The notes under the pieces are model-generated. The model saw only the letters and a program-made list of their open reading frames with translations, had not been told where the DNA came from and did not search any database. From Eubacteriales bacterium (GTDB lineage Bacteria > Bacillota > Clostridia > Lachnospirales > Lachnospiraceae), in NCBI GenBank assembly GCA_030536575.1, contig JAUNPS010000007.1, forward strand, positions 62,001-126,000: a stretch of DNA of 64,000 nucleotides. The letters run 5' to 3'. Shown here in pieces: positions 22,502 to 36,316 of this stretch. The position numbers and the translations under genes are program-made. Numbering within the stretch: the first letter of the stretch is position 1; each line of letters begins with the position of its first letter.

Positions 22502-23467
22502 TTACTCTTCCTCCAGCGGAACATAGTCCTCCGGAACTTCGATGCCGAGCTTTTCGCAGAGCGTTTTATTATAGCGTTTCGTAAAATCCTCCGCATATGC
22601 AACCGGCATCTCGGAAATCTCTTCTCCATCCTCCAGGATACGCACGGCCATTTCCCCCGTGAGATATCCGAGTTCATAATAATCGATCGACAAGGTAGCG
22701 ACGCCGCACACCTTGCACGTACTTTCTTCCCCTGCAATCACCGGAATTCCTTCCGGCACGCAGATATTCGCAATCAGCTCCGCATTCGACGCCACGGTAT
22801 TATCCGTCGGCACATAGAGGACGTTACATTCCGCCGCTGCGTTCGACGTAACGGAAAAAATATCATTCGAATCCGAAAATGCATAGGCCTCACAGGCATA
22901 GCCCAGCGCCTTCAATTCTTCCTGTACCACGTCGATCTGGTACTGCGAATTCGGCTCGGCCGAGCAGTAGACCAGTCCGACCTTTTGCGCGTCCGGGAAC
23001 AGCTCTTTTACCATCGCGGCCTGTTCCGCCAGTGGCGCCAGGTCTGAAGTGCCGGAAATATTCCCGCCCACCGTGCCGTCAAAGTTCTCCAACTGAAGCG
23101 CCGCCCCGTATTCCGTAACCGACGTCCCCAGAATCGGGATATCCGTCGTCGCTGTCGCGGCAGTCTGCAAAGAAGCCGTGGCATTCGCCAGAATTAAATC
23201 CACTTCTTTCGCCACCAAGCTGTTCACAACCGTCGTGCAGGTCGCATAGTCTCCCTGCGCATTTTCCTCTACGAACGTCACGCGCTCTCCGAGCGCTTCC
23301 GTCAGCGCATCCTTGAAGCCCTGCGCCGCGCTGTCCAGCGCCTGGTGCTGTACAAACTGGCAGATTCCCACCGTAAAATCCTCCTCTTCCTCCGCATTGC
23401 CCGTCAAACCGAAAATGCCTGTCAGCATTCCGGCCGCGGCAAGTAATACGGCCATTCGTTTTTTCAT
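22502..23467 (-). CDS. TrpX-like ABC transporter substrate-binding protein, orphan
   Basis: 321 aa from ATG 23467, which is 8 bases after AGGAGG; an ATG two codons earlier is too close to the ribosome site. Signal peptide MAVLLAAAGMLTGIFGLTGNA. The mature part belongs to the PF04392 (ABC_sub_bind, TrpX/YtlA-like) group, with VGICQFVQHQALDSAAQGF, LILANATASLQTA, IPILGTSVTEYGAAL and VGLVYCSAEPNS. The family binds aromatic amino acids or similar small ligands. The usual permease and ATPase partners are absent on both sides. A truncated duplicate of its 5' end lies directly upstream (see 23486). Confidence 0.88.
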   Translation of the reverse strand: MKKRMAVLLAAAGMLTGIFGLTGNAEEEEDFTVGICQFVQHQALDSAAQGFKDALTEALGERVTFVEENAQGDYATCTTVVNSLVAKEVDLILANATASLQTAATATTDIPILGTSVTEYGAALQLENFDGTVGGNISGTSDLAPLAEQAAMVKELFPDAQKVGLVYCSAEPNSQYQIDVVQEELKALGYACEAYAFSDSNDIFSVTSNAAAECNVLYVPTDNTVASNAELIANICVPEGIPVIAGEESTCKVCGVATLSIDYYELGYLTGEMAVRILEDGEEISEMPVAYAEDFTKRYNKTLCEKLGIEVPEDYVPLEEE

Positions 23468-23790
23468 ACTCATTCCCTCCTTGTATTACTCTTGTTTAAA
23501 GTTGTCTTGGCTCTCCACGCCGCGCGCATTTTCCTCTACAAACGTCACGCGCTCTCCGAGTGCTTCCGTCAGCGCGTCCTTGAAACCCTGCGCCGCGCTG
23601 TCCAGCGCCTGGTGCTGTACAAACTGGCAGATTCCTACCGTAAAATTCTCCTCTTCCTCCGCATTGCCCGTCAAACCGAAAATGCCTGTCAGCATTCCGG
23701 CCGCGGCAAGTAATACGGCCATTCGTTTTTTCATACTCATTCCCTCCTTGTATGATCCTTATTTAAGGTTGTCTTGGCTCTCCACGCCGC
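23257..23790 (-). repeat. 267-bp tandem duplication covering the 5' end of the trpX-like gene
   Basis: Two near-identical copies, 23257-23523 and 23524-23790, join at a GCGC microhomology. Each contains a leader, the ribosome site and about 70 codons. A handful of substitutions separate them, so the event is recent but not new. Confidence 0.9.
23486..23734 (-). pseudogene. Truncated duplicate of the trpX-like gene start
   Basis: 82 codons from ATG 23734. It repeats the signal peptide and the first mature residues (ENFTVGICQFVQHQALDSAA) of the gene at 22502 and then runs into the duplicated leader, ending with RGVESQDNFKQE. It keeps its own ribosome site, so a secreted fragment could still be made. 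It is best read as a by-product of the 267-bp tandem duplication and not as a functional binding protein. Confidence 0.85.
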
Positions 23791-23849
23791 GCGTTCTCAG
23801 CCTTGGCCATTCCGGCCACGTCCCCGCGGAACATGCGCCTTTCCAGCGC

Positions 23850-26190: not shown

Positions 26191-26976
26191 TTATCTCCCA
26201 AACGCAACCTCTTCCGCCATCTCAAACATCGTCTCCGCATCCAGCCCCACATCAAGTCCGCTTATGGAATAATCCATCCCGTCATCGACCCACATAACAC
26301 AATAATGCGTTGTATATTCCACATCGTCGCCATAGGAAATCTTCAGCTTCCCAGCTTCCACATCTTTCCGATCCTGCTCCGTAAGGTAGTCTCTTCCGTC
26401 CTCCGGCACAACCTTGTATCGCTGACAACTGTACTGAAAACGGATACCATTTACCTCTTTCACCGTCAACGACGTGCCCGTGCTCTCTTCCATATGCGGC
26501 CGGATCACCAGATTCACCTTTTTCGCGCCGGACTGATAGTTGATGCTGATGGTCTGAACTTTATAAATCGTGTTTCCGTCTGTGTCGACGCCCTCATCCT
26601 GGCCGGTCGACGCGCCTGTGAAAGTAAATCCATTCGAAAAAGCTTCTACTGCCTTCCAGTTCCCTTCTCTGGAAGCCAGCTTCTTCTCCAGCTTTTCGTA
26701 GCTGCGAATCTGCACCGGGCCGGTTCCTCCATTTACGTAGGCAATCGAGCCGTTTCCGGCCGCAAACGCACTTCCGACTCCCAGACAGCACACCGCCGCA
26801 CAAATCGCCAAAACCTTCACTCTTTTATGTCTCATAAACATTCCCTCCTCATTTTTCTGCTCCGCACCGACCCGCACCTGGCGCAGTACCTGTCTGCTCC
26901 ATACTTCCGATACCGGAACCTCCTCTGCCTGCTGCCGCAGACATGCCTTTAAATTCCTGTCAAATTCTCCGCTCAT
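26191..26976 (-). CDS. DUF4367 anti-sigma-type membrane protein
   Basis: 261 aa from ATG 26976, which has GGAGG 8 bases upstream; a longer in-frame reading would lie within the sigma gene. A short cytoplasmic N-terminus (1-48) precedes one membrane segment (VKVLAICAAVCCLGVGSAFA) and an extracytoplasmic DUF4367-like domain (about 80-261, GNWKAVEAFSNGFTF, YCVMWVDDGMDYSISGLDVG). It overlaps the sigma gene by 17 bases. By analogy with similar pairs it probably holds or senses for the sigma factor. It lacks the usual zinc-binding anti-sigma motif, so the mode of inhibition is uncertain. Confidence 0.8.
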   Translation of the reverse strand: MSGEFDRNLKACLRQQAEEVPVSEVWSRQVLRQVRVGAEQKNEEGMFMRHKRVKVLAICAAVCCLGVGSAFAAGNGSIAYVNGGTGPVQIRSYEKLEKKLASREGNWKAVEAFSNGFTFTGASTGQDEGVDTDGNTIYKVQTISINYQSGAKKVNLVIRPHMEESTGTSLTVKEVNGIRFQYSCQRYKVVPEDGRDYLTEQDRKDVEAGKLKISYGDDVEYTTHYCVMWVDDGMDYSISGLDVGLDAETMFEMAEEVAFGR

Positions 26977-27562
26977 AATACTTTGCCTCCCATCCCTTCG
27001 AAATCTTTTCCGGCTCTTCACAGTCCCCCGCATCCCCCAGCGCTTTTCGTAATGCCTTTCTGGCATGGAACAGGCGCGTCCGCACGGTTCCTTCGCGCAA
27101 GCCTGTGCTGCGGGCAATTTCCGCCGTGGTCATTTCGTTGTAATAATACAGGATCGTCACCATCCGCTGTTTTGCCGGAAGCTTTAAAACTTCTTTATAC
27201 AGGGCAATGCTCTGCTCCGACTCCAGATAACATTCCAGAGGGGACGGCTCCGGGCTGGCGGTTTCCGCCTGGAAAATCTCCTCGACCGGCTGCTCCCGTT
27301 TCTGCTTCTGGCAGTAGCGCCAGGTCATTCTGGTCAGCATCCGGAAAAACCAGCTTTTGAAGAATTCCGGTTCCCGGATTTCCCCTGCGTGGTAGTAGCA
27401 ATGCAGAAAGGCGTTCTGTACAATGTCCTCGCTGTCCGCCTGGCTGTGAATCATCAGATAAACCGTCCGCAGCGCTTCTTCCCGATAGCGGACAAACAGC
27501 TTTTCAAAAGCTTCCTGGCTTCCCTGCTGCATTGCCCTTACCAGCTCGGCGTCTTTCTCCAT
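26960..27562 (-). CDS. ECF-type RNA polymerase sigma factor
   Basis: 200 aa. Region 2 (about 25-95) contains DSEDIVQNAFLHCYYH and FKSWFFRMLTRMTWRYCQKQKR. Region 4 (about 120-175) contains LPAKQRMVTILYYYNEMTTAEIA and LREGTVRTRLFHARKALRKAL. Size and domains match the sigma-70 ECF family. The downstream membrane protein overlaps it, forming a sigma/anti-sigma pair. A possible self-recognised promoter (TGAAC, 16 bases, GTCT) lies at 27623-27647. The target regulon is not visible in the window. Confidence 0.9.
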   Translation of the reverse strand: MEKDAELVRAMQQGSQEAFEKLFVRYREEALRTVYLMIHSQADSEDIVQNAFLHCYYHAGEIREPEFFKSWFFRMLTRMTWRYCQKQKREQPVEEIFQAETASPEPSPLECYLESEQSIALYKEVLKLPAKQRMVTILYYYNEMTTAEIARSTGLREGTVRTRLFHARKALRKALGDAGDCEEPEKISKGWEAKYYERRI

Positions 27563-27644: not shown

Positions 27645-28472
27645 TCAATTTTCTGCAAAAAAATTTTTCAGTGCAAGGCATGCGCCGCACCCTCCTGCGA
27701 GGATACAGCATCCAAGGGCCAGCGCGCTCCACAGCCTTCTCACTTCGAAAATGGAAAGCCCGGCCTGAAGCACCTGCTCCACCTCTTCTTTCCAATTTTG
27801 AAAGAAGGAGCCATAAAATGAGAAATCTGACCATTTCGAGGGAATGCATCCGGTCAGGAGGTCTGAGAACCTGCTTTTTACCAGGATGACGTCTATTTGA
27901 TAGCGGTTTTTTAAGTTTTCTTCGATTTCGCGGCTTTTCTGCTCCCCGGTATCTGCCGCTGCAATGCGGTTAAAGCCGGTTTTCTCATCTTTGGAAGCCT
28001 GTATAATCAACGTTCCCCGGAATCCCTCCAAAACGCCCCGGATAATATATTCCTTCTCCCCATAGGTAACCGCCGCGCCAATCACGTTCTCGCTTCCAAA
28101 CAGCTCCCAGGCCGTATGGCTGTCCAACAGGCATCCGCTGATATCTCCGGCTGCCGGTATCTGGAAGTTTCCGGTGAGAAGGGACGGGTTTCCGCTGACC
28201 GTAAGGACTGTGACGGTAGCCGTCCGCTCCGCCGGAACGTTTGTGGCAATCGTTTGATTTGTCTCTTCCCGCCAGAAAGTCAGATCAGGGAGGCTCTCTT
28301 TTCCGGCGGCATCTTCCTGAATCTCCTCTGCCGTTTCCAATGAAATCGCCGTCTGGCTCTGGTAGTGGAATGCGCTCCCTCCTCTTTGAAGGGTGCGAAG
28401 CTGTCCCAGGCCCAGAAGGGCGCACAGGCAGAAAAGGGCTGTGCCTGTCAAAATTTTTATTTTTCTTTTCAT
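27645..28472 (-). CDS. MacB-periplasmic-core-like membrane protein, FtsX part absent
   Basis: 275 aa. One N-terminal membrane segment (ILTGTALFCLCALLGLG) is followed by an extracytoplasmic domain (about 35-235) whose pattern TVTVLTVSGNPSLL, GDISGCLLDSHTAWELFGS and VIGAAVTYGEKEYIIRGV fits the MacB_PCD domain of MacB/FtsX-type permeases. A C-terminal membrane segment (about 248-268) ends it. The rest of an FtsX domain (three more membrane segments) is missing, so it cannot be a complete permease. It overlaps the adaptor gene by 4 bases (ATGA) and is the last gene of the hybrid operon. A structural role with the HlyD-type adaptor is inferred. Confidence 0.6.
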   Translation of the reverse strand: MKRKIKILTGTALFCLCALLGLGQLRTLQRGGSAFHYQSQTAISLETAEEIQEDAAGKESLPDLTFWREETNQTIATNVPAERTATVTVLTVSGNPSLLTGNFQIPAAGDISGCLLDSHTAWELFGSENVIGAAVTYGEKEYIIRGVLEGFRGTLIIQASKDEKTGFNRIAAADTGEQKSREIEENLKNRYQIDVILVKSRFSDLLTGCIPSKWSDFSFYGSFFQNWKEEVEQVLQAGLSIFEVRRLWSALALGCCILAGGCGACLALKNFFAEN

Positions 28473-30013
28473 GAGACTTCCTTTCGGATTCTGCTTCCTG
28501 CCTGGATTTCCCGGTCGGTTTCCAGGATGATCTCCCGGTCGGAAATGCCGTCCCCGGAAACGGCCGCATAATCGCTGTTTTTATCCAGTACGGTGACTCT
28601 TATTTTCTCCGCCTCCAGGATGGTTCCCAGGATTCCTTCTTTTTCCGAAACGGCCAGCACGAAGGTTTCACCGTTTTCCGAACGCAATGCTCCAGTCGGC
28701 AGTACCATGGAATACGATTCTGTCTGCCTGCTGAAATCGGCCGTTACCAGGTCGCCGAGTTCCAGGGATGCTTCCTCTGTCACTATGGTAACTTGTAAAA
28801 CCGAGGTATCGGTTCCCACCCAGGCGATCTTTTTAATCACACCTTCCGCGAGTTCTTCTGTGCTTCCGTATTTTTTCAGGCTGACGCTGGCTCCGATTAC
28901 CAGTTCGGTTTCGTATTCGGAAGAAAGTTCTGCGGTAAGCTGTTTCTCGTCGGATACTGCCGCAATCACCGCCGCTTCTGCCGCAGAAGTTTTTTCCCCG
29001 ATTTTTACATCAATGCTTTCAATCGTTCCGGAAACTGGAGCCAATACGTTTCCCTCGTTGTCTGTGCTGCTGTCTGTGGCGTCTTCGACTGCTCTGGTGT
29101 ACTTGAGCATTGCTTCTTCGAATTCCTGCAATGCGCTCTGATATGCAGGAATTGCCTCTTCCAGGGCTTCCTGGCACGAGGTTTCCGCGTCAGGGCGTGA
29201 GAACTGATAGGTTCGCTCCCGGCTTCTTTGGTATTCCCAATAGGCCTCCTGCGCGCTTTGCAGCCCATTCCACACCTCCCGAAGCGCCTCCTGTAATTCA
29301 TTCTGGGCCGCCTGGCCGTTTTCCTGCCCGCTCTGACCCTCCCCGCCGGTCTCCTGTCCGCTCGCTTCCCCTTCGCTCTGGCCCGTCCCACTGGCCTTCT
29401 GTCCGCTCTGCTCTCCTTCACTCTGGCCCGTCCCGCTGGCCTCCTGAAGCGCCTCCTGGCCGCTCCGCTCCCCACTCTCCCACATCTCCAGATACATCTC
29501 CAAATATTCCTGATACTCCCCGAAATATTCATACTCCTTCTCCCGCATCGCAAGCTCCAGCCGATCCTCCTCCAAATCATCGTCCGCCTTCCAATACCAG
29601 GACGCCGTCTTTTCCAAATACGCCTGCCATGCTTCATAAGCCGCCAAATAAACCTCCTCCGCCTCCTGAAGCTCCCTCATCCCCTCTTTTTCCCACACAA
29701 ACAGATCCTCTTCCGCCCGCCGCAGCGCCGTATTCTCCGACACCCGCAGCAATGGCTCTCCCTCCTCCACCGTATCCCCCTCTTTTCCATAAACCTCTTC
29801 CACATACCGATTTTCCGGGACAAGGACGGCATATTTCACCCCTGCCTCCACCTTTCCCAACGCGCTGACCGTATGCGTAATCCTGCCGGATACCGCCTTC
29901 GTCGTCCCCACAACCGCCGTCGTCATACTCGCCGCCGCCCTGGACAGAAACGTAAACAGAACCATCGCCGCCAAAAAGGCAATCCCGGCCTTTTTCATTC
30001 TTTTTTTCATCAA
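28469..30013 (-). CDS. HlyD/MacA-type adaptor protein with low-complexity insert
   Basis: 514 aa. After an N-terminal membrane anchor (IAFLAAMVLFTFLSRAAA) come a barrel-sandwich half (about 45-90, YAVLVPENRYVEEVYGKEGDTVEEGEPLL), a long coiled-coil (about 95-320), the second barrel half (about 325-360, VLAPVSGTIESIDVKIGEKTSA) and a beta-barrel plus membrane-proximal domain (about 365-514). The hairpin contains a Gly/Ser/Gln/Glu-rich insert at about 185-240 with near repeats of SGTGQSEGE and SGQ. Adaptors of this type link inner-membrane transporters to the cell surface. No cognate MacB-type ATPase is next to it. It overlaps neighbours by 4 bases on both sides. Confidence 0.85.
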   Translation of the reverse strand: MMKKRMKKAGIAFLAAMVLFTFLSRAAASMTTAVVGTTKAVSGRITHTVSALGKVEAGVKYAVLVPENRYVEEVYGKEGDTVEEGEPLLRVSENTALRRAEEDLFVWEKEGMRELQEAEEVYLAAYEAWQAYLEKTASWYWKADDDLEEDRLELAMREKEYEYFGEYQEYLEMYLEMWESGERSGQEALQEASGTGQSEGEQSGQKASGTGQSEGEASGQETGGEGQSGQENGQAAQNELQEALREVWNGLQSAQEAYWEYQRSRERTYQFSRPDAETSCQEALEEAIPAYQSALQEFEEAMLKYTRAVEDATDSSTDNEGNVLAPVSGTIESIDVKIGEKTSAAEAAVIAAVSDEKQLTAELSSEYETELVIGASVSLKKYGSTEELAEGVIKKIAWVGTDTSVLQVTIVTEEASLELGDLVTADFSRQTESYSMVLPTGALRSENGETFVLAVSEKEGILGTILEAEKIRVTVLDKNSDYAAVSGDGISDREIILETDREIQAGSRIRKEVS

Positions 30014-30873
30014 CCCCGAACCTCTTCTTTCTTAACATGAGACGCCTCAATCCCCTGTTCCAAATACTCCTCTCCGTTCAAAAATACCAGAAAAACCGGC
30101 AAAAAAGTCAGCACCGACACCGCGAAAGCGAACCCGACGCTTCCCTCCTCAATTTCCGGAAGCAGAATCGACAGCGGCCAAAGGCTTTTCGTCTTCAGAA
30201 AGGCCAGCGGCTGCTCGATCATGTTCCAGCTTTCCGGAATCCCCAGCACCATTGCGGAAAAAATCCCGGATTTCCCCAAGGGCAGCCCGATATGGAAAAA
30301 TAATCCCCACGCGCCTGCCCCGTCCAGCCGCCCGGCCTCCACGATCTCCTCCGGAATCCCCGCAAAAAACCGGTACATCAGAAAAACCGGAAATGTGGAA
30401 AACGCGCCTTGAAAAATCAGCCCCAGATGGCTGTCCAGCAGGTTCAGCTCCTTTAAAACCAGATAATCCGACAGCATCAGAACCTGAAACGGCATCAGCA
30501 TCAGGGCAATGTACAGCCAGATCACCGTCTTTTTAAGCGGAAACGAATACCTGGCAAGGCCCCATGCCGCCGGTATCCCAAAAAGCATCTGGCCGCACAG
30601 AATTCCCAGCGTTATTTTTCCGGTATTCCAGAACATGACGAAAAATTCCGGCGTATCCAGCAAAATTTCCACGTAAGCCCGGAGCGTCGGATAGAGCGGA
30701 AAGAGGAACAATTTCGCATAGTCCTCTCCCTGGCCGAGTATCCCGCCCAGTTGGAGCGTCAGTTCCCCTTCACCCATAAAGGAACCGGCAATTAAAAAGC
30801 ACACCGGCAGCACCGCGAACAGCGCGCAGGCCAGAACCAGCCCTTCAATTCTTCTTCTGCAATGCTTCCTCAT
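30010..30873 (-). CDS. Carbohydrate-type ABC permease, MalG type
   Basis: 287 aa with six membrane segments. The EAA loop EEIVEAGRLDGAGAWGLFFHIGLPLGK is near residues 175-200. Start ATG 30873 follows the previous permease directly; its ribosome site (AAGGAG) is within that gene. The 4-base overlap with the adaptor gene shows that an importer-type permease and an efflux-type adaptor are translationally coupled, an unusual pairing. CUT1 family length. Confidence 0.88.
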   Translation of the reverse strand: MRKHCRRRIEGLVLACALFAVLPVCFLIAGSFMGEGELTLQLGGILGQGEDYAKLFLFPLYPTLRAYVEILLDTPEFFVMFWNTGKITLGILCGQMLFGIPAAWGLARYSFPLKKTVIWLYIALMLMPFQVLMLSDYLVLKELNLLDSHLGLIFQGAFSTFPVFLMYRFFAGIPEEIVEAGRLDGAGAWGLFFHIGLPLGKSGIFSAMVLGIPESWNMIEQPLAFLKTKSLWPLSILLPEIEEGSVGFAFAVSVLTFLPVFLVFLNGEEYLEQGIEASHVKKEEVRG

Positions 30874-31716
30874 TCATCCCATCTCCTTTCCCCAGACTTT
30901 ATACAAAATCCCCAGAAAGCTTAAAATCACAATACTTAAAAGAACAGAAGCCGCCGACATTTTATCCAATGCCAGTATCCGGAACCAATTATTAAATAAA
31001 TGCTGCATCATATACATGCTGTCATGGGGATAATTCCCCGCCACCAGATAGGCCTCCCGGAATACCTTGAAGGAATTCAGCATGGAGAGCACCGCCGCCG
31101 TAGCAAAAACCTGTTTTAAATTCGGCAGCGTCATACTCCGGAAAATCCGGAATTCCCCCGCCCCGTCGATTCTGGCCGCTTCGTAAATGCTGCTGTCGAT
31201 CTGCTTTAACCCGGCCAGCCATAGGATCACATGGTAGCCGCTGTTCCGCCATAGATAGCTGAAAACCAGAATCCAGAATGCCGCCGAAGAATTCAGCCAG
31301 TTGTTCACAGGCAGTCCCATTCTCTCTAAAACGGCATTCAAAAGCCCGTACCGATGAAAAAGGAGCTTCCAGATCAGGGCTGTCGAGACCGCCGGAAGGG
31401 CCATCGGCAGCAAAAGCATCCATTTATACCATGCGCCGTACCGGCACCGCTGAATCAAAACTGCAAGCGCCAGGGAACCGGCGAGCAAAACCGGAATACA
31501 GATCAGAATAAAGCGCAGCGTATTTTTCGAAGCCAGCAGAAACGCTTCGTTTTGAAATAATTTTCGAAAATTTTCCAGCCCCGCAAAGCCTTGCCCGGTA
31601 CTTCGGGCAAAGGCGCGCCGGAACACGTCCAGCCAGGGGATACAATAAAACAGAAGGACTCCTGACAGGCTTGGGAGAATCCAGAGAACTCCCGTCCAGT
31701 TTTTCTTTTTCTTCAT
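30874..31716 (-). CDS. Carbohydrate-type ABC permease, UgpA/MalF type
   Basis: 280 aa, six membrane segments, beginning WTGVLWILPSLSGVLLFYCI. The EAA loop YEAARIDGAGEFRIFRSMTLPNLK is near residue 185. It abuts the second permease and follows the binding protein by 4 bases, with GGAGTG of the binding-protein end as ribosome site. Part of the hybrid operon 33895-27645. Confidence 0.88.
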   Translation of the reverse strand: MKKKKNWTGVLWILPSLSGVLLFYCIPWLDVFRRAFARSTGQGFAGLENFRKLFQNEAFLLASKNTLRFILICIPVLLAGSLALAVLIQRCRYGAWYKWMLLLPMALPAVSTALIWKLLFHRYGLLNAVLERMGLPVNNWLNSSAAFWILVFSYLWRNSGYHVILWLAGLKQIDSSIYEAARIDGAGEFRIFRSMTLPNLKQVFATAAVLSMLNSFKVFREAYLVAGNYPHDSMYMMQHLFNNWFRILALDKMSAASVLLSIVILSFLGILYKVWGKEMG

Positions 31717-31720
31717 AGGC

Positions 31721-33895
31721 TCACTCCGCCATGTGAAGGTTTACCTTCTGTAAAATGCTGTTTACCGTTTCCTCCAGGGAAGCTTCGCCGGAAAGGTAAC
31801 GAACGCCCTGCTCCGTCACCGTTTCCCGGATGACGGTGTCTGTGACTGTGGGCGTGTGCAGTTCCCGAATTATCTCTTCAATTTTCTCGAAGCCTGCGCG
31901 GCTCTCTTCCTCCGGAAGGGTATCATACTCCACATTCCGCGCAACCTCCTCTTCCCGCATCTCCTGAAATGCCGTCTGATTCACCGGATAAGCCGTATCC
32001 TCGATGGTAAACTGCTTTTGGCAGTCAGAGGATAAAAATTCCTTCACGAAGGCAAGCGCGGCCTGCTGATTTTCACTCTTCGCATTCACACTGATGATTT
32101 CCACCGGGACAAAAACGCCGCTGCTCTGGCCTTTCGCACTGGTAAAGGCAAGATCCACTTCCAGAAGCGCCAACGAAAAATTCAGGGATTTGGATGTGTA
32201 GATCCCTAGCGTCGTCTCCCCCCGTTCGATCTGGTAAGGAATCCACAGTTCTGCGTTATCTTCGTCGTAGTCCGCGTTTGTCTGCTCGATATCGGCCTGG
32301 CTGATCCCTTCTTTCTGGATATCGTTTATCCTTTTCGCCGTCTCCAGAAACTCGGACAGCTTTTTGGAATCCATCTCCCCGCTTTCATCCAGCCAGGAAG
32401 GGGAACAGAAGTCTGCGAGTCCGTCCAGCAGCAGTTCGTCATACCTTCCCACCACGCTGGCCCTTTTCGGATACTGCGCTTTCAGCGCGCTTACCTGCTC
32501 CGCCAGGGAAGACAAGTCCGTAATCTGGCTGATATTCTTTTCCGGGCCGACCAGAATCGGTATCCGGAAACGTGCCGGAACTGCGTAAACCTGCCCTTCC
32601 GTTTCATAGGTATAAACGATATTATCATAAATTCCTTCTTCGTTTGCCACATCTCGTAAGACATTTGATAAATCTGCCAGCAAACCGCTCTCGCAGGACT
32701 GTTCCACGTCCATTCCGTCCAGAATAATCAGATCCGGCCCGGTTCCGGCTAAAATTTCCGTGTTCAGGGTTTTGATTGCGTCATCCGCTGTAACGCCTGT
32801 CCCCTCTGTCATTCCGATTTCCAGCGATACGACGATATCCGGATTGTTTTGGTTATAAGTATTGATTTCCTGCTGAAGCAGCGCATTTTCATATAAAGAA
32901 TATATGGTAAGCTTTTCTGTCGTCTCCTGTTCGCCGCCCGCCGCATACCGCTTTAATTCCGCCGTATTTTCTCTGATATAAGCAATGAGCACACTTTGAT
33001 CGGAAAGCACCGCAAGTTTCCGGAAATTGCTGTTGTTATCCCCCATGGTATTCGTACTGCCGTCCAGGAGCTGTTCTGTCACGCTTCCTCCTGCCGTATA
33101 ATGAAAAATCCCTCTCCGGGAAGCATAGGAAAAGCCGTTCCCGTCCGAATCCTGAAGAAAACAGCCGCTTTTTCCGGAACTCGAAAAGTCTGAGAGATCC
33201 TGGGTAAGAAGACGGTTTACCACCTCATTGCCCTCCTGCATCTCGCCTTTTTTGTCATAAAATTTCACGCCCTCCCCAGTAAGAGCCAGAATGTTTCCGT
33301 TGAAAGCTGCCGTCAGATAGTGCATTTCTCCTTCCGCCGGAATTTCTCCAATCACCGTTCCGCTTGTAATGTCAATGATTTGGATGTTGCTCTCCGTATC
33401 GGTTACAAGCAAAGTGTCTTCATCTGCAAATTCCAGGGTGTAGCATGCATTGCCATCAAAATCAATCCCGATGGACTGTGACGTTCCGTCCGTGTGATAG
33501 ACCGCAATCTCCTGGCCTCCCGCAAACGCAAAACTGCCCTGGGGGCTGATGGCCGCTATCGTCCTATTCTCCGAAAGCCAGGCCGTTTTTTCTTCGGAAA
33601 TGTTCCAGGTACTCCCCGCGTCCGCCGAGGAATACGCCGCCTGATCCGTAATCATCCAGACCGTTCCGGAAATTTCCCGAATTGCCTTTACATCGTTTGT
33701 ATTTTCCGGCAGGGTAAGGGCTTCTTCCCTGTAACTTCCTGTGCTTGCGCTCGTGGAAACCAACGCTGCGCTGCCTGAATCTGTTTCCGTATCTTGGCTG
33801 CCCGCGCTGTCCGCCAGGCGCTGACAGCCGCCAAAACTGACCGCCGCCGCTGACAGCATTCCAATAACCAGAAAATTTCGCAGTATCCGCTTCAT
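31721..33895 (-). CDS. Lipoprotein fusing a beta-propeller-like domain to an ABC solute-binding domain
   Basis: 724 aa, almost twice the length of a normal binding protein. Lipobox FGGC gives a mature Cys at 24. Residues about 50-345 look like a WD/BNR-type beta-propeller: repeats such as GTVWMITDQAAYSSADAGSTW, SPQGSFAFAGGQEIAVY and EDTLLVTDTESNIQIIDI. Residues about 345-700 form a family 1 solute-binding domain (EKLTIYSLYENALLQQEINTYNQ is its start; GPDLIILDGMDVEQ, GQVYAVPARFRIPILVG). The ligand cannot be told. It heads the operon with two permeases, an adaptor and a MacB-like protein and is divergent from a two-component system. Confidence 0.82.
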   Translation of the reverse strand: MKRILRNFLVIGMLSAAAVSFGGCQRLADSAGSQDTETDSGSAALVSTSASTGSYREEALTLPENTNDVKAIREISGTVWMITDQAAYSSADAGSTWNISEEKTAWLSENRTIAAISPQGSFAFAGGQEIAVYHTDGTSQSIGIDFDGNACYTLEFADEDTLLVTDTESNIQIIDITSGTVIGEIPAEGEMHYLTAAFNGNILALTGEGVKFYDKKGEMQEGNEVVNRLLTQDLSDFSSSGKSGCFLQDSDGNGFSYASRRGIFHYTAGGSVTEQLLDGSTNTMGDNNSNFRKLAVLSDQSVLIAYIRENTAELKRYAAGGEQETTEKLTIYSLYENALLQQEINTYNQNNPDIVVSLEIGMTEGTGVTADDAIKTLNTEILAGTGPDLIILDGMDVEQSCESGLLADLSNVLRDVANEEGIYDNIVYTYETEGQVYAVPARFRIPILVGPEKNISQITDLSSLAEQVSALKAQYPKRASVVGRYDELLLDGLADFCSPSWLDESGEMDSKKLSEFLETAKRINDIQKEGISQADIEQTNADYDEDNAELWIPYQIERGETTLGIYTSKSLNFSLALLEVDLAFTSAKGQSSGVFVPVEIISVNAKSENQQAALAFVKEFLSSDCQKQFTIEDTAYPVNQTAFQEMREEEVARNVEYDTLPEEESRAGFEKIEEIIRELHTPTVTDTVIRETVTEQGVRYLSGEASLEETVNSILQKVNLHMAE

Positions 33896-33999
33896 GTTTC
33901 TGTCCTCCTTTTTGAATTTCCCGCCCTGCGCAGAACGTTTTTTACATTTTCATCTTATCACAGCAATCTCGAAATTTTTTCTAATTTCCATGGAATTTT

Positions 34000-34032
34000 T
34001 TAGAGATAAATTAGAGACAGAAATGGTATAAT
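34000..34032 (+). promoter_or_regulatory. Two-component system promoter with direct repeats
   Basis: An extended -10 (TGGTATAAT, TATAAT at 34027-34032) has no good -35. In its place is a direct repeat TTAGAGA at 34000 and 34011, an 11-base period typical of OmpR/PhoB-type binding sites. This fits auto-activation by the regulator at 34056, and the same region could drive the divergent lipoprotein operon. Confidence 0.55.
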
Positions 34033-34055
34033 AGGCAGATAGAAAGGAGTGTGCC

Positions 34056-34727
34056 ATGCGAATTTTACTGATTGAAGACGATGCCGATTTTTCCAGTTCC
34101 CTCCAGAGCCAGCTCGTACACAATGGTTTTGAAGTCGACATTTGTTCGAACGGCAGCGACGGCCTTTTCTATTTGAAACAGCAGGATTACCACCTGATTC
34201 TTCTGGATCGGCTGATGCCCGTCCTGGACGGAATGAGTTTTCTGCAGATTATCCGCCGTCAGAATCTTTCCACTCCGGTCATTTTCATTACCGGAATCGG
34301 GGAGCTGGCCGCCAGGATTGACGGTTTAAACGGCGGAGCAGATGATTATCTGGTAAAACCCTTTGCGTTTGAGGAACTGTTGGCCCGGATTCACTGTATT
34401 TTGCGCCGCCCGCAGGCCCTGAAGACCGCGCATCCGGTTTCTGCCGGAGACTTGACCTGGTATCCCTCGGAAAAGGAGCTTCATTGCCGGGAAACGTCCT
34501 GCACGCTGACCGCGAAGGAAAGCGCCCTGCTGGAGCTTTTTCTGGCGCATCCGAACCAGACGCTGACCAGGGAACGCATTTTTTCAGAAATCTGGGGATA
34601 TGATACGGACGTGGAATCCGGAAATCTGGATAATTATATTTATTTTCTGAGAAACCGCATCCGCTCGCTGAAAAGTACGGCCTCTTTACAGACAGTTCGG
34701 GGCGTCGGATACCGTCTGACCCTCTGA
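34056..34727 (+). CDS. OmpR/PhoB family response regulator
   Basis: 223 aa. Receiver domain with the acidic pair at 7-8, Asp51 (LILLDRLMPVLDG) and conserved Lys (DDYLVKPF). A winged-helix DNA-binding domain (about 130-222) ends VRGVGYRLTL, with ESGNLDNYIYFLRNRI. AAAGGAG ribosome site. Followed 22 bases later by its kinase and divergent from the hybrid importer/adaptor operon, which it probably controls. Confidence 0.93.
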   Translation: MRILLIEDDADFSSSLQSQLVHNGFEVDICSNGSDGLFYLKQQDYHLILLDRLMPVLDGMSFLQIIRRQNLSTPVIFITGIGELAARIDGLNGGADDYLVKPFAFEELLARIHCILRRPQALKTAHPVSAGDLTWYPSEKELHCRETSCTLTAKESALLELFLAHPNQTLTRERIFSEIWGYDTDVESGNLDNYIYFLRNRIRSLKSTASLQTVRGVGYRLTL

Positions 34728-34749
34728 ATCGGGCCGGAAAGGAGTTTCT

Positions 34750-36042
34750 ATGTATCGGAAATTACGTTTCCAGTTGACGGCTTTCTGCGTGCTGGTGATC
34801 GGCGTTGTCCTGGCGGCGGTAGTGTGTATCAGCCTGAAGCTGTTCCGGGACAATCAGGAACTGAAATGCTTCAATGACTTTCAGGAAACCATGAACCGCA
34901 TCTGCCAGACCCTTTCCACAAGCGAAAGCATTTCGCACTCCTGGCTGACGGAAGTCTCTGCGGAAAATGATCTGGCGCTCTCAATTCTGGATAACGTTCT
35001 TCCGCTTCTGTACCAGGTGGATTCGGAAAATGAAAACCTGGATTCTTATTTTCTTCAGGCGCGCAGTGTGGCCGTGGAGTCCTACGCGCTTTCGGAGCTT
35101 TCCGTAAAGACGAGCAATTATCCGAAGCATGTGGAATTTCAGATGAAAACGGACGCGGACGGCGTCTATCTGGCTTCGGTCGCCTATATTCCAAAGGAAT
35201 TCGGTCTTTTGACCGTGACCGCACTGTTTGACCTTACCTCACATCTGTCTTACCTGGACGGGCTGTATCCGCCGATCGTTCTCTCGGCTTTGGGGGCGGC
35301 TCTGCTTTTAAGCGTCCTCTCTTTTTTTCTGATTCGGCGTCTGATCCGCCCTCTGGAGGAGAGTCATGAGCGGCAGACTGCTTTTTTTGCCGCCGCTTCG
35401 CATGAGCTGCGTTCTCCGTTGGCGGTCATTCTTTCTTCCCTGTCTGCGATGGAGGCCGCGCCGCAGGGAAAGGCGGATGGGTTTTTAGGGATTGTAAAAA
35501 AAGAAAGCCTGCGCATGCAGCGTTTGGTGAATGATATGTTTACGCTGGCTTCTTTGGATAATGGGAGCGTTTCGATTCGGAAGGAGCCGGTTTTTCTGGA
35601 TAATCTTTTGATTGAGGCGTATGAAAGGTTCTGCGGGCTGGCAGCGCAGAAGAAAATTCGGATTGAGGTGCGGCTGCCGGAGGAGGTGCTTCCGGAGGCT
35701 TTTTGTGATCCGGAGAGGATTGCGCAGGTGTTTACGATTTTGTTGGACAATGCGGTGGCTTATACGCCGGAGGGCGGGATGATTTGGGTGTCTTTGGAGG
35801 GCGGACAGTCAGGATTTACGGTGAGGGTGGCGGACAATGGGTTCGGGGTGCCTAAGGAGCAGCGGGAGGATATTTTTTCACGGTTTTACCGATGTGACCA
35901 GGCCAGGACGGATAAGGAGCATTTTGGGCTTGGGCTTAGTATTGCGCGGGAGATTGTGGAGCTGCATGGCGGGAAGATTCTGGTGCGGGAGGCGGAAGGC
36001 GGCGGAGCGGAGTTTGTGGTGACGCTGCCGGGGGTGAGGTAG
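34750..36042 (+). CDS. Sensor histidine kinase
   Basis: 430 aa with two membrane segments (about 8-30 and 178-200) bounding an extracytoplasmic sensor of about 145 residues that I cannot assign. His218 lies in AAASHELRSPLAVI. The HATPase domain has LDNAVAYTPEGG, VADNGFGVP and GLGLSIAREIVELHGG. AAAGGAG precedes the ATG. It pairs with the upstream OmpR-type regulator. The sensor may read the state of the divergent transporter system. The signal is unknown. Confidence 0.93.
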   Translation: MYRKLRFQLTAFCVLVIGVVLAAVVCISLKLFRDNQELKCFNDFQETMNRICQTLSTSESISHSWLTEVSAENDLALSILDNVLPLLYQVDSENENLDSYFLQARSVAVESYALSELSVKTSNYPKHVEFQMKTDADGVYLASVAYIPKEFGLLTVTALFDLTSHLSYLDGLYPPIVLSALGAALLLSVLSFFLIRRLIRPLEESHERQTAFFAAASHELRSPLAVILSSLSAMEAAPQGKADGFLGIVKKESLRMQRLVNDMFTLASLDNGSVSIRKEPVFLDNLLIEAYERFCGLAAQKKIRIEVRLPEEVLPEAFCDPERIAQVFTILLDNAVAYTPEGGMIWVSLEGGQSGFTVRVADNGFGVPKEQREDIFSRFYRCDQARTDKEHFGLGLSIAREIVELHGGKILVREAEGGGAEFVVTLPGVR

Positions 36043-36053
36043 GAGGCTGGGCG

Positions 36054-36316
36054 CGCCGTGTAGCCAACGAGCGGTTCCTAGGCTGGACACGCCGACGGCA
36101 AGATCAGCACGTGGCACTGGCTTTTAGCACCGGGACGCGTGGCCATACGCAGGACTGACACGTCGCGTGGCTAACGAGCGGTTCCTGAGCCGGGTACGCC
36201 GACGGCAATGTCAGCACGTGGCACTGGCTTCTCGCACCGAGACGCGTGGCCATGCGCAGGACTGACACGCCGCCCGGCCAACAGCGGTTCCTGGGCTGGG
36301 CGTGTCGCGTGGCCGG
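36054..36316. repeat. 107-bp tandem repeats between the kinase and murA
   Basis: The marker GCGGTTCCT begins at 36071, 36178 and 36284, giving a period of 106-107 bases over about 2.5 copies. Each holds GCCGACGGC and CAGCACGTGGCACTGGCTT. GC-rich, no gene on either strand, lying between convergent genes and before the terminator at 36339. Confidence 0.85.

Follow-up and report, generated by a model that had tools for sequence, protein, structure and literature searches.

In this study, we analyzed an operon in a 64,000-nt stretch of a Lachnospiraceae genome (assembly GCA_030536575.1, contig JAUNPS010000007.1, positions 62,001 to 126,000), hereafter the window, which combines the permeases of a sugar-type importer with two proteins related to efflux systems. 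The source genome comprises 4.81 Mb in 100 contigs and is 90.7% complete. Five genes on one strand encode a binding lipoprotein (S), two permeases (P1 and P2), an adaptor (A) and a MacB-core protein (M); a response regulator (RR) and a histidine kinase (HK) are encoded divergently from S (Table 1). As open reading frames (ORFs), S and P1 lie 4 bases apart, P1 and P2 directly adjoin, P2/A and A/M overlap by 4 bases each, and 160 bases of DNA separate RR from S. Pfam and NCBIfam searches of the window proteins supported the binding protein, the CUT1-type permeases, the adaptor, the OmpR-type regulator and the kinase.

Table 1. Genes and operator-like sites of the operon and its divergent two-component system (positions within the window; TM, transmembrane helix).
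Feature	Position	Strand	Length	Description
S	31721..33895	-	724 aa	Lipoprotein, N-terminal beta-propeller and C-terminal sugar-type solute-binding domain
P1	30874..31716	-	280 aa	CUT1 permease, UgpA/GlcT-like, EAARIDGA loop intact
P2	30010..30873	-	287 aa	CUT1 permease, UgpE-like, EAGRLDGA loop intact
A	28469..30013	-	514 aa	MacA/YknX/HlyD-type adaptor, membrane-anchored
M	27645..28472	-	275 aa	MacB-core protein: TM1 - core - PSKWSDFSF segment - TM
RR	34056..34727	+	223 aa	OmpR/PhoB-type response regulator
HK	34750..36042	+	430 aa	Histidine kinase, extracytoplasmic domain between its two TM helices
Operator-like direct repeat	34000..34017	-		TCTCTAATTTATCTCTAA; 14/14 match
Second, opposite operator-like site	33967..33984	+		TCTCGAAATTTTTTCTAA; 12/14 match

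Within the family, 250 genomes were searched with S and M. Relatives of S (E ≤ 1e-20) were found in 42 of them (41 of 249 genera) and relatives of M (E ≤ 1e-4) in 38, the window genome being included in both genome counts. Two sets of loci were examined, which overlap in genomes and hence are not independent. The first comprised sixty stretches, 55 centred on S matches and five on M matches, and was read gene by gene. The second was taken from named genomes by alignment with S and comprised the best 80 of 250 confirmed matches, with loci at contig ends counted. These 80 loci were mostly from Lachnospiraceae by title, and Angelakisella massiliensis and an 'Oscillospiraceae' record were also among them. 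On one strand and in order, P1-P2-A was present in 66 of the 80, S-P1-P2-A in 63, P1-P2-A-M in 52 and the complete S-P1-P2-A-M in 49. A divergent HK-RR pair with at most two ORFs in between was found in 61. In a relative of the class (L225) the gene order was S-A-M-P1-P2. An earlier note on this DNA, made from the letters and their translations, had described five tightly spaced genes, an unusual set of importer and efflux parts, and a divergent OmpR/HK pair sharing the intergenic region. All of this agrees with our results, as the gaps are 0-4 bases or 4-base overlaps, the order recurs in many genera and the hybrid set is a conserved cassette. The separation of the genes in most relatives, which the note had considered, was not observed. 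A complete cassette was also seen on a record titled as a Sporofaciens musculi plasmid (L178).

Both window permeases matched BPD_transp_1 of Pfam (P1, 4.5e-15; P2, 4.1e-11) and retained the importer-type ATPase-docking (EAA) loops. The loop of P1, EAAxxDGA, was present in 64 of 72 P1 proteins and was followed by LP in 57 of the 72. In the alignment of P2, DGA occurred in all 71 rows and the leading E in 93%, followed by A or S; the alignment is preferred here to strict motif counts for P2 (38/70 and 37/70), which are too low. With a mean identity of 0.60, P1 was among the most conserved parts of the cassette. In a tree of 138 P1 leaves, an adaptor-linked group of 122 stood apart from 16 other CUT1 permeases (support 0.71, branch 0.92), two of which come from elsewhere in the window. 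The sample of leaves is not neutral, because S, M and P1 served as queries in collecting them. A was nearby for 115 of the 122 leaves of the adaptor-linked group. Four in-clade leaves without A (L072, L082, L167 and L189) lie at contig ends, and a fifth (L087) has no A beside it and belongs to a genome with P2-A-M on another contig (L127). For L244, also in the clade, no A was found, and the seventh in-clade leaf without A is that of L243. One out-group leaf (L106) was labelled A-bearing merely through adjoining a cassette. P1 of the window type (at least 305 bits) was found in 39 of the 250 family genomes, and in a sample of the phylum a score of at least 266 bits was reached in eight of 398 genomes, the next best being 198; both counts include the window genome. 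At L243 (9943-10620), the gene after P2 encodes a 225-aa protein with a shortened A-like part joined to TM helices and an IPxxxLP segment, apparently a reduced A/M fusion.

S matched both SBP_bac_8 and SBP_bac_1 above the cut-offs. Its predicted structure had a mean predicted local distance difference test score (pLDDT) of 87.3, and the C-terminal part of the model matched sugar-binding proteins (CbpC 7x0o, 3.2e-18; also YesO and RafE). Among the 50 matches listed for the model, most were solute-binding or maltose-binding proteins, including fusions. The N-terminal profile of S found propeller chains, namely WD40 (2ymu, 1.5e-14), a GH74 xyloglucanase (2cn3, 2.3e-12) and Ycf48 (5ojp, 2.9e-8), although these scores may be inflated by repeats and the aligned stretch of the best one is degenerate. 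Of 100 S proteins, taken with uncurated ORF starts, 78 had a lipobox-like motif. Two to four copies of S were found in 12 of the 80 named loci. Three or four S genes were seen at each of L174, L166, L173, L196, L197, L201 and L207. Such multiple genes in one locus suggest several receptors that serve one importer.

The adaptor scored 22.1 bits with HlyD_3, just below the cut-off of 22.2, and its NCBIfam match to RND_mfp (1.4e-16) was also below the cut-off. Profile matches of A comprised RND, MacA, MexJ-type and EmrA chains. We take its layout to be an N-terminal anchor, lipoyl halves, a hairpin of variable length and a membrane-proximal part. Short adaptors of 206-253 aa were found in seven loci (L095, L103, L245, L246, L247, L260 and L261), still beside the permeases. 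In these proteins, the anchor is kept along with the membrane-proximal part at the C-terminus, whereas the hairpin is missing and so is most of the lipoyl part. The tunnel-forming part of A therefore seems dispensable in some relatives. Within the A gene of the window, a 45-base tandem repeat (2.6 copies, 29329-29446) lies in the variable middle part.

The match of the window M to MacB_PCD (20.5 bits) was below the cut-off of 27, and 26 of 31 members of the M family matched this domain. None of the 31 had an FtsX domain at E ≤ 0.1. The nearest solved chain to M by profile was the outer domain of YknZ (5.4e-8). The usual M consists of TM1, the MacB core, TM2, TM3, a conserved IPxkWSDFxFW segment and TM4. 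TM2 and TM3, the middle two of these four helices, are missing from the window M and, by alignment, from 14 of 78 complete M proteins including it (eight incomplete proteins were excluded). A frameshift or truncation of the window M was ruled out, because its C-terminal segment and last TM helix align with the relatives and 13 other complete M proteins are alike. In a second sister group (L230-L242), M was present at 11 loci and had two TM helices by hydropathy, except for four in L240. An invariant cysteine (GC motif; C112 of L147) was noticed in the MacB core of the family.

We also predicted the structure of a four-helix relative, the M of L147 (mean pLDDT 92.4). The model matched MacB (5gko, 1.4e-9), a Streptococcus pneumoniae transporter (5xu1, 1.2e-8), YknZ (5f9q, 1.5e-7) and LolCDE (7arh, 2.8e-7). 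Three residues join TM2 and TM3 in this model, and the sister M proteins of L226 have a longer stretch there. The major coupling helix of MacB is described as lying between TM2 and TM3 (PMC5985334). Judged from alignments and models, M appears to retain the adaptor-docking core and to be able to lose the region that serves ATP coupling in MacB. The outer domain of YknZ was reported to bind YknX directly in vitro (PMC4887032), from which a contact between A and M would be expected.

No ORF with ABC (ATP-binding cassette) ATPase motifs was found inside the cassettes of two overlapping sets (42 + 66, 108 in all), which rules out a hidden ATPase gene within the cassette spans. One such ORF that had been flagged as inside, at L126, really sits upstream of P1, the flag having come from a weak P1-like match further up. 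Within 3 kb beyond the cassette ends, ORFs with these motifs occurred at 10 of the 108 cassettes. Five of these flanking ATPases were scanned: that of L143 was MalK-type, those of L207 and L077 were exporter-type with ABC_membrane, and those of L176 and L202 had ABC_tran and no MalK domain. The ATPase of L207 follows its cassette at a distance of 147 bases, so that this cassette may have an exporter as its neighbour. L143 has a cassette of the window type, and its 369-aa ATPase (105-1214), with ABC_tran, OB_MalK and TOBE_2, lies directly behind HK on the same strand. Three other genomes contributed four sister loci (L226-L229) with the gene order P1-P2-A-M-ATPase-S. Two of their ATPases (L226 and L228) were scanned and had ABC_tran, OB_MalK and TOBE_2 above cut-off. 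The S proteins of these loci are only 459-498 aa long, and the one scanned had binding-protein domains only. Operons of this type, whose S has no propeller, come from other families within the phylum and may represent the ancestral arrangement. The window genome itself held 88 matches to P2 (E ≤ 0.001) versus four OB_MalK ATPases, of which C6, C56 and C100 were near permease matches and C59 had none within 40 kb. Sharing of MsmX/MsmK ATPases among sugar importers of Firmicutes is described as established (PMC7658222). We infer that an ATPase of the MsmK/MalK type, whose gene lies outside the cassette, energises it in trans.

In the intergenic DNA between RR and S, five-base direct repeats 11 bases apart were counted 406 times, compared with 35.7 expected from single-base shuffles. 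The repeat unit was TCTCTAA and the predicted operator TCTCTAA-N4-TCTCTAA. A pair of units 11 bases apart, matching at least 12 of 14 bases on either strand, was present in 54 of 64 loci including the window, versus 0.77 expected from 30 dinucleotide shuffles; discovery and scoring of the motif used one and the same group of related loci. With at most one mismatch, the window genome had one site, the perfect one of Table 1, and the backwards control likewise had one. With at most two mismatches it had eight, two of them at this locus, and the other six can be regarded as background, since the backwards control gave 48. Among 17 loci classed as lacking a divergent RR, 16 were scorable and 11 reached 12/14 upstream of S, although the class is imperfect (L194 has a divergent pair, and L149 and L164 start too near the contig end). 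A promoter scan was uninformative (5 sites versus 5.4 expected). The gene order and the common operator-like repeat support the view that the cassette is tied to the divergent two-component system, as far as sequences can tell.

Each part of the cassette belongs to a known family. Like the CUT1 importers of the AraNPQ/YesOPQ type, which are energised by MsmX/MsmK, it has a binding lipoprotein, two BPD_transp_1 permeases with EAA loops and no ATPase gene in the operon. Unlike them, it has an S with a propeller, co-encodes A and M, and adjoins an OmpR-type two-component system with an operator-like repeat. With the YknWXYZ and MacAB pumps (also Spr0693-0695 of S. pneumoniae) it shares a MacA-type adaptor, and the core of M is nearest to YknZ/MacB outer domains in both sequence and fold. 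It was not classed with these pumps, because it has neither an FtsX domain nor a cognate ATPase of the YknY type; moreover, the M model lacks the coupling helix, the window M lacks the middle TM helices, and the pore is a CUT1 pair. The parts had been named correctly in the earlier note: a propeller/solute-binding lipoprotein (Pfam and the N-terminal profile), two CUT1-type permeases (BPD_transp_1 and EAA loops), a HlyD/MacA-type adaptor (profile matches, with HlyD_3 just below and RND_mfp below cut-off) and a MacB-core protein without FtsX. The note had also envisaged a complete MacB ATPase/FtsX pair beside the adaptor, and neither component was found in the cassettes and M proteins surveyed. 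We found no earlier description of this operon among the titles and abstract openings listed by our searches of open-access papers. The pairing of a CUT1 importer with accessories of MacA/MacB descent appears to be new.

The reading we prefer, with a probability of roughly 0.6, is that the operon encodes a regulator-induced CUT1 importer with a shared MsmK/MalK-type ATPase, in which A and M are accessories co-opted from a MacAB/YknXZ-type system to the outer face. It is based on the gene order and its conservation, the lack of an ATPase gene in the cassette, the docking loops, the folds of S and the M core, and the repeat. The proteins would form a physical complex and transport would be inward. 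The lipid-anchored S, with its extra propeller, would capture a ligand, most likely a glycan, and pass it to P1-P2, the membrane pore, which the shared ATPase would drive from elsewhere in the genome. The MacB core of M would dock A in the way that YknZ docks YknX. Outside the membrane, A and M might sit on the importer as a platform and hold one or several S proteins there, or might guide the ligand on the wall side. HK would detect the ligand or the state of the transporter, and RR would bind the direct-repeat operator and induce the operon.

Several observations weigh against this reading. Support for the adaptor-linked P1 clade was only 0.71, and no M was found for 28 of its 122 leaves, some of them at contig ends. 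When fitted over the whole chain, the M model agreed poorly with MacB (TM-score 0.41; root-mean-square deviation 15.8), and as all whole-chain fits were 0.41 or less, only the core of M is a firm MacB match. Five loci (L085, L101, L117, L118 and L123) had S and HK/RR without adjoining permeases, which implies that S may signal without transport; the genomes of these loci, G166 and G164, nevertheless carry a P1 from the wider group at another place. Among ten neighbouring proteins from six loci, a small sample, one was a glycoside hydrolase (GH127). Other neighbours at these loci were gyrase subunits, Glu/Gln-tRNA synthetase, Orn/Lys/Arg decarboxylase, amino-acid enzymes and a GGDEF protein. 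A nutrient locus is disfavoured by this count, and with so few sugar-use neighbours, the locus plausibly has an envelope or host-glycan role instead of being dedicated to sugar degradation. In the 41 loci with all seven genes, the pairwise protein distances correlated with r of 0.78-0.93; this is largely shared ancestry (partial r 0.19-0.55), and the co-variation may serve as weak, supportive evidence. Chance adjacency or two neighbouring operons had also been considered, and both were ruled out by the conserved order together with the co-varying distances. S with a divergent or adjacent HK/RR and no permeases beside it was also seen at L155 and L211, and all seven loci resemble satellite receptor-regulator modules.

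A more far-reaching possibility, which we regard as tentative, is a hybrid ABC machine. In it, the type I importer motor with the shared MalK-type ATPase would be physically coupled to the MacB/MacA-derived outer module. The importer would act as an uptake conduit or drive work on the outer face by mechanotransmission, and would report to the two-component system. The conduit would lie on the wall side and be supplied by one or more receptors that carry a propeller, and the outer module would have lost ATPase coupling of its own. ABC importers are usually regarded as architecturally distinct from MacAB-type efflux assemblies, and here one group of sugar-importer permeases repeatedly has adaptor and MacB-core proteins as partners. 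If the parts do form one complex, the MacB outer core would be a docking part that can be reused independently of its ATPase, and annotations of 'efflux adaptor' or 'MacB' beside sugar permeases would need rereading.

It is rather unlikely that the cassette is mainly a sensing complex, in which the importer proteins would sense a ligand from the envelope or the host and signal to HK, with little net uptake. PstSCAB and BceAB are transporters that signal in a comparable way, to PhoR and BceS respectively. Their operons resemble ours in having a kinase/regulator pair and a common operator-like site, although our cassette consists of CUT1 permeases with MacA/MacB-derived parts and its coupling between kinase and transporter is putative. 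The adjacent HK/RR with the single strong operator-like pair in the genome, the loci that have S and HK/RR without permeases, and the lack of clear catabolic genes in the small sample of neighbours would all fit such a complex. S, A, M and the sensor part of HK also share extra distance signal (partial r 0.37-0.50, controlling for P1, P2, RR and the kinase part). However, the docking loops are retained, P1 is among the most conserved parts and MalK-type ATPases are linked to the cassette in relatives, and thus ATP-driven cycling seems to matter. Envelope sensing, as the earlier note had suggested, is possible on this sequence evidence. As the operon is compact and has a predicted operator, signalling linked to an importer in gut bacteria is directly testable.

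We consider it improbable that P1-P2 and the ATPase work as a motor for the outside, driving M and A by MacB-like mechanotransmission so that they move or release something at the outer face. The MacB-type core of M and the linkage of A and M to this permease group would suit such a motor, as would the three-residue link of the L147 model, which stands where MacB has its coupling helix, so that any drive must come from elsewhere. The TM2-TM3 pair is absent from a share of M proteins, for which a docking role fits better than that of a moving part, and the longer TM2-TM3 stretch in the sister M of L226 also argues against this motor.

An export or efflux machine made from importer permeases, the other proposal of the earlier note, is very unlikely. 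A resembles MacA, MexJ and EmrA chains and M resembles YknZ and MacB; however, the cassette has a sugar-type binding protein, importer docking loops, MalK-type ATPases in relatives and no FtsX domain, and in some loci the permeases are still accompanied by adaptors in which the hairpin and most of the lipoyl part are missing. Least probable of all is an ordinary sugar importer with A and M as passengers that act with an ATPase or permease elsewhere, as their efflux relatives might suggest, because the association tracks the permease group, the short adaptors and the apparent A/M fusion of L243 stay beside P2, and the distances of P1 and A keep a common signal (partial r 0.47).

Some other features were seen near the operon in the window. 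An ECF (extracytoplasmic function) sigma factor and a DUF4367 anti-sigma-like protein are encoded on the minus strand at 26191-27562, 82 bases past M, and are possibly unrelated. A 107-base unit is repeated 2.2 times at 36063-36301, between HK and the next, convergent gene. At 23257-23793, a 267-base unit occurs in two copies with 95% identity.

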